Positions 32,825-33,428 of a DNA stretch of 33,711 nt are shown in pieces. The translations under genes and the position numbers were made by a program. Every line of letters begins with the position of its first letter. Positions within the stretch are counted from its first letter, which is position 1. The notes below the pieces were generated by a model, which had not been told where the DNA came from, searched no databases, and saw nothing but the letters and a program-made list of their open reading frames with translations. This DNA is from Gemmatimonadaceae bacterium (GTDB lineage: Bacteria > Gemmatimonadota > Gemmatimonadetes > Gemmatimonadales > Gemmatimonadaceae): contig JACCWE010000118.1 of the NCBI GenBank assembly GCA_013697785.1, positions 1-33,711 of the forward strand, in the 5' to 3' direction.

Positions 32825-33289
32825 CTAAGCCGCCGCCGCGCCCGTGAGCTGCGACGTGCAATTGGGGCAGCGCGAAGCCGACAGTGGGATGTCCATCGCG
32901 CAATACGGACACGGCTTCACCTTCGTGACCTGCGGCGCCTGATTCACGCGCACGAGCCGGTTCACCGCGCGCACGATGAGAAAGGCGCAGAAGCCGACGA
33001 TCAGAAACGACACGACGTTGTTGACGAAGATGCCGTAGTTCAGGGTCGTCGCGCCCGCCGCCTTCGCCGCCGCGACCGACGCGTATGGTCCCGGCACCGC
33101 CGCGCCATCCTTGAGCACCGCGAATTTATTGGAGAAGTCGATACCTCCGGTCGCCATCCCGATCGGAGGCATGATCACATCATCGACCAGCGACTTGACC
33201 ACAGCGCCAAAGGCCGCGCCGATGATGACGGCAATCGCCAGATCCATCACGTTGCCGCGCAGAATGAACGACTTGAAATCCTTGAGCAT
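32825..33289 (-). CDS. mscL: Large-conductance mechanosensitive channel with C-terminal zinc ribbon
   Basis: The 154-residue channel starts at the ATG at 33289 (GGAG upstream); the frame is open to 33361 without similarity. The MscL N-terminus FKSFILRGNVMDLAIAVIIG gives TM1 with the gate-forming Gly/Ala pattern. A periplasmic loop and TM2 (VVSFLIVGFCAFLIVRAVN) follow. After TM2, in place of the usual C-terminal helical bundle, come two Cys pairs, CPYC (127-130) and CPNC (141-144), forming a zinc-ribbon knuckle. It opens under membrane tension to release solutes in osmotic downshock. The extra domain is not part of the classic E. coli protein and could bind another protein or sense redox or zinc state. 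Confidence 0.95.
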   Translation of the reverse strand: MLKDFKSFILRGNVMDLAIAVIIGAAFGAVVKSLVDDVIMPPIGMATGGIDFSNKFAVLKDGAAVPGPYASVAAAKAAGATTLNYGIFVNNVVSFLIVGFCAFLIVRAVNRLVRVNQAPQVTKVKPCPYCAMDIPLSASRCPNCTSQLTGAAAA

Positions 33290-33428
33290 TGACAGTCTCC
33301 AGGTTGGTGGCGAGCTCGCACTGCGCGAGAGCGTCGGAGCGCTGCGAATAATGTACGGCATCCGGGATCCGGCTGGCGATGGCGAGCTAAGCGGTATTGC
33401 TTTGATACAACGCGTATCGCGCGGCTAC

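Follow-up and report, generated by a model that had tools for sequence, protein, structure and literature searches.

The closest described counterparts of the protein analysed here are the MscL channels of Escherichia coli and Mycobacterium tuberculosis (PF01741; 2OAR and 4LKU), in which an N-terminal helix, the transmembrane helices TM1 and TM2 and a linker are followed by a helix of the LLxEIRDLLK type that forms the C-terminal bundle. The role of this C-terminal domain is called controversial in the accessible part of one study, which for E. coli MscL also states that gating does not involve the bundle, for which a role as a size filter has been proposed, and that deletion of the bundle alters subconductance behaviour (PMC5722894). 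In the available portion of a second study the function of the domain is described as ‘not well understood’, and truncation of M. tuberculosis MscL is stated to give higher tension sensitivity and higher conductance (PMC6167328). The same portion describes MaMscL, from Methanosarcina acetivorans, as being without this domain, which suggests that the bundle is not a defining feature of MscL.

The MscL examined here is encoded within a stretch of 33,711 nucleotides from a Gemmatimonadaceae bacterium (termed ‘the window’). It shares the N-terminal helix, TM1, TM2 and linker with the E. coli and M. tuberculosis proteins, but lacks their LLxEIRDLLK helix and carries a four-Cys (C4) ribbon instead. 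MaMscL resembles it in having an MscL core and no C-terminal bundle, but differs in that no ribbon is mentioned for MaMscL in the accessible text of PMC6167328. No description of a zinc-ribbon-tailed MscL was found in the open-access literature that was searched, and the sequence databases plainly contain such proteins.

The window mscL gene and its product

The mscL coding sequence occupies positions 32825..33289 of the minus strand, and its translation gives 154 residues plus a stop codon. The product matches PF01741 with 131.5 bits (cut-off 27.4; E = 2.7e-38; residues 1-119) and TIGR00220 with 108.4 bits (cut-off 71), and the PF01741 match spans TM1, the loop and TM2, which places the protein in the MscL family. 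By extension from its family, the window MscL would be expected to form a pentameric, tension-gated channel. The ATG at 33289 is preceded, at a distance of 6 bases, by a ribosome-binding-like GGAGA stretch that was read in the sequence (33296..33300, minus strand), and hence the longer ORF of 178 residues that opens at 33361 probably does not mark the true start. A scan for promoters and terminators found none. No other MscL match is present in the genome to which the window belongs.

As delimited by the PF01741 match and by alignments, the membrane core comprises residues 1-112 (32954..33289, minus strand), that is, the N-terminal helix, TM1, the periplasmic loop and TM2. It is followed by an Ala/Pro-rich linker that is variable among relatives (residues 113-126; 32912..32953, minus strand) and by a zinc-ribbon-like module (residues 127-148; 32846..32911, minus strand; CPYC-x10-CPNC-TSQL), which is defined by Cys conservation and by a model of the isolated fragment. 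Translation and alignment place the first Cys knuckle, CPYC, at residues 127-130 (32900..32911, minus strand) and the second, CPNC, at residues 141-144 (32858..32869, minus strand). After TM2 and the linker, the tail therefore presents two CPxC-type knuckles at the spacing of a zinc ribbon (C127-x2-C130-x10-C141-x2-C144), and a search of the window protein for the helical-bundle motif (LLxEIRDLLK type) gave no match. These readings bear out the preliminary description, which had placed a C4 module after TM2 in the position of the helical bundle. Eight sequences of solved structures matched the window protein, all of them MscLs, and in no case did the alignment run past residue 122.

Ribbon and bundle do not co-occur in the loci examined

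Of 334 loci, 332 contained MscL, the exceptions being L286 and L288, in which no core could be matched. With the bundle class called by a permissive motif (an LLxEIRDLLK-type helix), the tails comprised 240 ribbons, 73 bundles, 19 with neither and none with both, proportions that are not frequencies, since the loci were fetched so as to include non-ribbon forms. The 332 loci contain repeats, for example the window gene as both L001 and L002; among the 320 distinct proteins the corresponding numbers were 229, 72, 19 and 0. Both tails follow the same kind of Ala/Pro linker, the median distance from the core being 15 residues to the first Cys and 18 residues to the bundle helix.

The distribution of Cys residues follows the same division. 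Ribbon loci contain either four Cys (199 loci) or five (41 loci), and 88 of the 92 non-ribbon MscL loci have no Cys at all. The four exceptions are two bundle forms with a single Cys, one ribbon that is interrupted by unread bases and one that is broken. No half ribbon of functional appearance was seen among the 332 loci. The broken copy is L297, from the Desulfobacterota draw, in which a ribbon begins (KECPKCYSSIP) and then gives way to unrelated letters. A group of Gemmatimonadota MscLs of 113-116 residues (L255-L261) has neither ribbon nor bundle.

Exchange of the two tails was observed at one locus. The cores of L229, which has a ribbon, and L232, which has a bundle, are 87.9% identical over 107 columns (Nitrospirota draw). 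When L229 is compared with L232 and with L233, also a bundle form, the difference is confined to the last ∼ 100 bases of mscL and the flanks are conserved. The DNA alignment of L229 proceeds at ∼ 68% from the upstream gene across the core and ends 90-100 bases before the stop codon; downstream of mscL similarity returns, and amounts to 69% for L232 and 73% for L233. At this locus the upstream gene, scanned in L231 and 91% identical in L232, encodes a DUF481 protein; the gene downstream, scanned in L232, encodes an OmpA-family protein. Together, the absence of MscLs with both tails from the 332 loci and the exchange of ribbon and bundle at a single locus suggest that the ribbon is an alternative cytoplasmic module that occupies the slot of the pentameric bundle. 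Pairs produced by such a natural tail swap, at a conserved locus and with cores that are 88% identical, could serve to separate the roles of core and tail.

A tree of the cores, built with the tails removed, was calculated after L001, L158, L297 and L307 had been removed and the remaining 328 loci had been reduced, at 72% core identity and separately for each tail class, to 126. On this 126-core tree the ribbon state changes 22 times, compared with a mean of 41.0 for shuffled states; the starred branches alone force at least 3 changes in what is a weakly resolved tree (5 of 123 inner branches starred). The tree is unrooted, and so gain and loss of the ribbon are not told apart. One long starred branch (1.73) carries a set of very divergent MscL-like proteins of 95-103 residues from Gemmatimonadota (L287 and L289-L294). 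With ancestry uncontrolled, the periplasmic loop holds most of the 14 core columns whose association with the ribbon is strongest; columns 9, 49, 53, 94 and 112 lie elsewhere, and column 9, which belongs to the N-terminal helix, gives the top z value of all (9.6). The association of the periplasmic-loop columns with the ribbon looks like shared ancestry.

Conservation and selection on the ribbon

The first set of relatives included 80 from a scan of species genomes, all of which have the ribbon; it is biased towards ribbon forms because CPYCAMDI was among its search patterns and only the best were kept. In the 111 loci of this ribbon-favouring collection (105 distinct proteins, with the window's own gene counted twice among the loci) all four Cys are invariant (111/111), and a Thr follows the last Cys in each of the 110 loci that have a residue there. 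Residues K125, I134, A138, R140, T145, S146 and L148 are strongly conserved beside the Cys in the same 111 loci. The wider collection gives a similar picture, with a knuckle spacing of 10 in 239 of the 240 ribbon loci, a last Cys that is immediately followed by Thr-Ser in 209 of the 240, and a ribbon net charge of +1 to +3 in 219 of 239. The preliminary description had made the ribbon depend on conservation of the Cys pairs in homologues, and the pairs proved to be conserved across phyla.

Values of pN/pS were obtained from 82 disjoint ribbon pairs with core identities of 75-96%. The ratio was 0.15 for TM1, 0.24 for the ribbon and 0.47 for the linker, the highest of the three regions. As judged from these ratios, the ribbon is under purifying selection. 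With its invariant Cys residues and its presence in 240 of the 332 loci, the ribbon tail is not a chance feature.

Predicted fold and relatives of the ribbon

The isolated ribbon was modelled with two short strands and a pLDDT of 79.8 overall, rising to about 90 in the segment 11-30 of the 39 residues modelled. A full-length monomer model calculated from 32 sequences was poor (pLDDT 64.7). Foldseek searches with the ribbon model returned E values of 0.82 or more, with RadD, the C4 fingers of Nup153 and TRABID, and ribosomal and IFT proteins among the matches, and in a VIA structure comparison Z was at most 3.4; the PDB neighbours included many C4 zinc fingers. These neighbours, weak and mixed as they are, are consistent with a predicted zinc finger and do not amount to proof. 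The four-Cys knob of the tail is probably zinc-binding.

The CPxC...CPxC pattern of the MscL ribbon is shared with UPF0547 (PF10571), DZR (PF12773) and Zn_Ribbon_1 (PF13240). However, the window ribbon falls under the Pfam gathering cut-offs (19.0 versus 29, 18.4 versus 27.3 and 18.0 versus 25 bits), and the Thr-Ser after the last Cys is typical of the MscL ribbon. When MscL ribbons were compared with UPF0547, 65 of 72 matched at E values of 1 or less, which is weak, the best being 1.1e-7. The best PDB profile match of the ribbon was Nup153 (E = 0.0076), whose RanBP2-type finger is similar in having CxxC-x10-CxxC followed by TSE. This finger is eukaryotic, however, and its consensus, which includes a Trp two residues before the first Cys and an Asn four residues after the second, is not that of the MscL ribbon: in the 111 first-collected loci position 125 is K in 99, R in 10, T in 1 and Q in 1, and position 134 is I in 99, V in 11 and M in 1. 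The RanBP2-type finger was accordingly rejected as a homologue, and the resemblance to Nup153 is likely to be convergent.

Twenty non-MscL proteins with a similar ribbon were found in the surveyed genomes, and most of them appear to be membrane-linked. Five were scanned with Pfam, giving one each with SPFH, PspC, bPH_2 and SH3_3 and one small protein with a single TM helix and no family. In the 17 other ribbon proteins for which the next residue was available, the last Cys is followed by Thr-Ser in none and by Gly in 7. Four proteins of 71-74 residues from the Zixibacteria draw (L335, L343, L351 and L352) combine one similar ribbon with an apparent single TM helix. The SPFH and PspC ribbon proteins found here fit the ZnR-PspC and band-7-ZnR fusions that are reported in the accessible part of PMC11237479. 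In these published proteins, too, a stress protein linked to the membrane bears a similar ribbon; their membrane domains are unrelated to MscL, and the PspC ribbon is N-terminal.

Predicted role of the ribbon

The reading that we favour, with modest confidence, is that the window protein is an ordinary MscL pore in which a C4 zinc ribbon replaces the five-helix bundle, and that the predicted zinc-folded knobs tune gating and cap the cytoplasmic mouth. In the reducing environment of the cytosol the four Cys of each subunit would hold one zinc, and five small, mostly positive knobs would hang below the pore on tethers of ∼ 15 residues. Like the bundle, the knobs would be dispensable for tension sensing; they would instead tune gating and cap the cytoplasmic mouth, either as a steric filter or as an aid to assembly. 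The conserved surface K-x-CPxC...A-x-R-CPxC-T-S-x-L would pack against a neighbour, the membrane face or a partner. Since the ribbon takes the bundle slot, excludes the bundle and is under selection, a related tuning or capping role is most likely, and the shared position and mutual exclusion suggest that the ribbon performs the bundle's job. The existence of MscLs with neither tail argues against such a bundle-like role. Zinc ribbons are usually monomeric, and for this reason the MscL ribbon may give no help to assembly.

A possible, if rather doubtful, alternative is that the ribbon is a docking module and not a cap, and that it brings a protein, lipid head groups or nucleic acid from the cytosol or the membrane surface to the channel. 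The conservation of the non-Cys residues K125, A138, R140, T145, S146 and L148 goes beyond the needs of a passive knob, and the net positive charge of most ribbons (+1 to +3 in 219 of 239) would also suit docking, as would the occurrence of similar ribbons on other proteins that are for the most part linked to membranes (PspC, SPFH/band-7, bPH_2 and small one-TM proteins), among them the ZnR-PspC and band-7-ZnR fusions described in the available text of PMC11237479. However, part of the conserved residues are probably required by the fold itself, and the gene neighbourhoods do not point to a partner. Among 80 loci and the window (440 ORFs, those overlapping mscL excluded) no family of neighbouring genes was common to more than three distinct mscL cores, and the families containing the window's own genes span one distinct core.

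It is improbable that the ribbon is, as suggested in the preliminary description, a zinc or redox sensor, in which loss of zinc or oxidation of Cys alters gating and osmotic release is thereby coupled to the state of zinc or thiols. The chemistry of the CPxC pairs is appropriate to such a function and Cys is wholly absent from nearly all non-ribbon loci (88/92), but the arrangement of the Cys is what a structural zinc site would show, with the spacing of 10 in all but one of the ribbon loci (239/240) and no functional-looking half ribbon. The ribbon is also common in phyla with many anaerobes, which include the ribbon-rich Chloroflexota and Desulfobacterota surveyed here. Crosslinking, in which covalent or zinc-bridged links between subunits hold the pentamer together, is quite improbable as well. 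Five copies would lie close together below the pore, and the domain that the ribbon replaces is pentameric in the M. tuberculosis and E. coli proteins according to the accessible part of PMC6167328; on the other hand, a single chain with four Cys spaced as in a ribbon can fully coordinate one zinc by itself, and an isolated single chain was modelled at a pLDDT of about 90 in its middle. That the ribbon is a neutral tail, carried along by chance and with no function in the channel, is scarcely credible given that its pN/pS over the 82 pairs (0.24) is half that of the linker and that the four Cys are retained across phyla, even though MscLs with neither ribbon nor bundle exist and E. coli MscL tolerates deletion of the bundle (PMC5722894, accessible part).

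Beyond the favoured tuning and capping role, a broader and unlikely proposal is that MscL has a modular cytoplasmic slot, and that the ribbon forms constitute a second major class of MscL whose zinc-folded head couples the valve to the cytosolic status of zinc or thiols, or attaches it to membrane-stress machinery of the PspC/SPFH type. Were this so, exchanging bundle for ribbon would retune the valve and leave the tension sensor untouched.

Distribution of the ribbon across phyla

Because the first set of relatives was biased, genomes were drawn evenly within six phyla, using P0001 as the query for Gemmatimonadota and the profile A1 for the other five, and the reach of each match into the ribbon was judged by eye. 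Every draw contains a centre genome already known to have the ribbon, and the phylum names, apart from that of the window itself, were inferred for each draw from its centre genome. The preliminary description had proposed a survey of other MscL proteins for the ribbon, and the ribbon was found in all six phyla drawn.

Among genomes with an MscL match, the ribbon was present in 57 of 108 in Gemmatimonadota (200 drawn; the 57 include one putative case, G016), at least 82 of 112 in Chloroflexota (201 drawn) and at least 12 of 208 in Pseudomonadota (398 drawn). The count for Desulfobacterota was 48 of 68 (198 drawn), which includes G907, read in part, and omits seven genomes that matched solely through a different ribbon protein, all seven having been read and found to be non-MscL. 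In Nitrospirota it was 26 of 46 (118 drawn; nine weaker matches omitted), and in Zixibacteria 39 of 42 (80 drawn), with the omission of seven genomes that have only short tail matches, of which three were read and found to be non-MscL. Thus, among clear MscL matches, the ribbon is in the majority in Chloroflexota, Desulfobacterota, Zixibacteria, Nitrospirota and, narrowly, Gemmatimonadota, and in the minority in Pseudomonadota. The E. coli and M. tuberculosis models are in this respect unrepresentative of the usual MscL in several phyla. One genome of the Nitrospirota draw has a ribbon MscL (L222) together with an apparent second copy (G1024:C1:23564-23954) whose match ends before the ribbon.

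Ribbon MscLs also occur in one Actinomycetota record and in two contigs of a phage collection. A record titled as a Klebsiella pneumoniae MAG (L104) contains a ribbon MscL that is 54% identical to that of the window, and this MAG is perhaps mislabelled. MscL matches were present in 111 plasmid records and 15 phage records, and among the matches listed few reach the ribbon; the three plasmid or phage-collection matches reaching it that were read all have the ribbon. In IMG/VR at least 4 of 41 loci have the ribbon. Six ribbon MscLs (L355-L358, L202 and L203) lie on contigs that are filed as viral and that may be host DNA.
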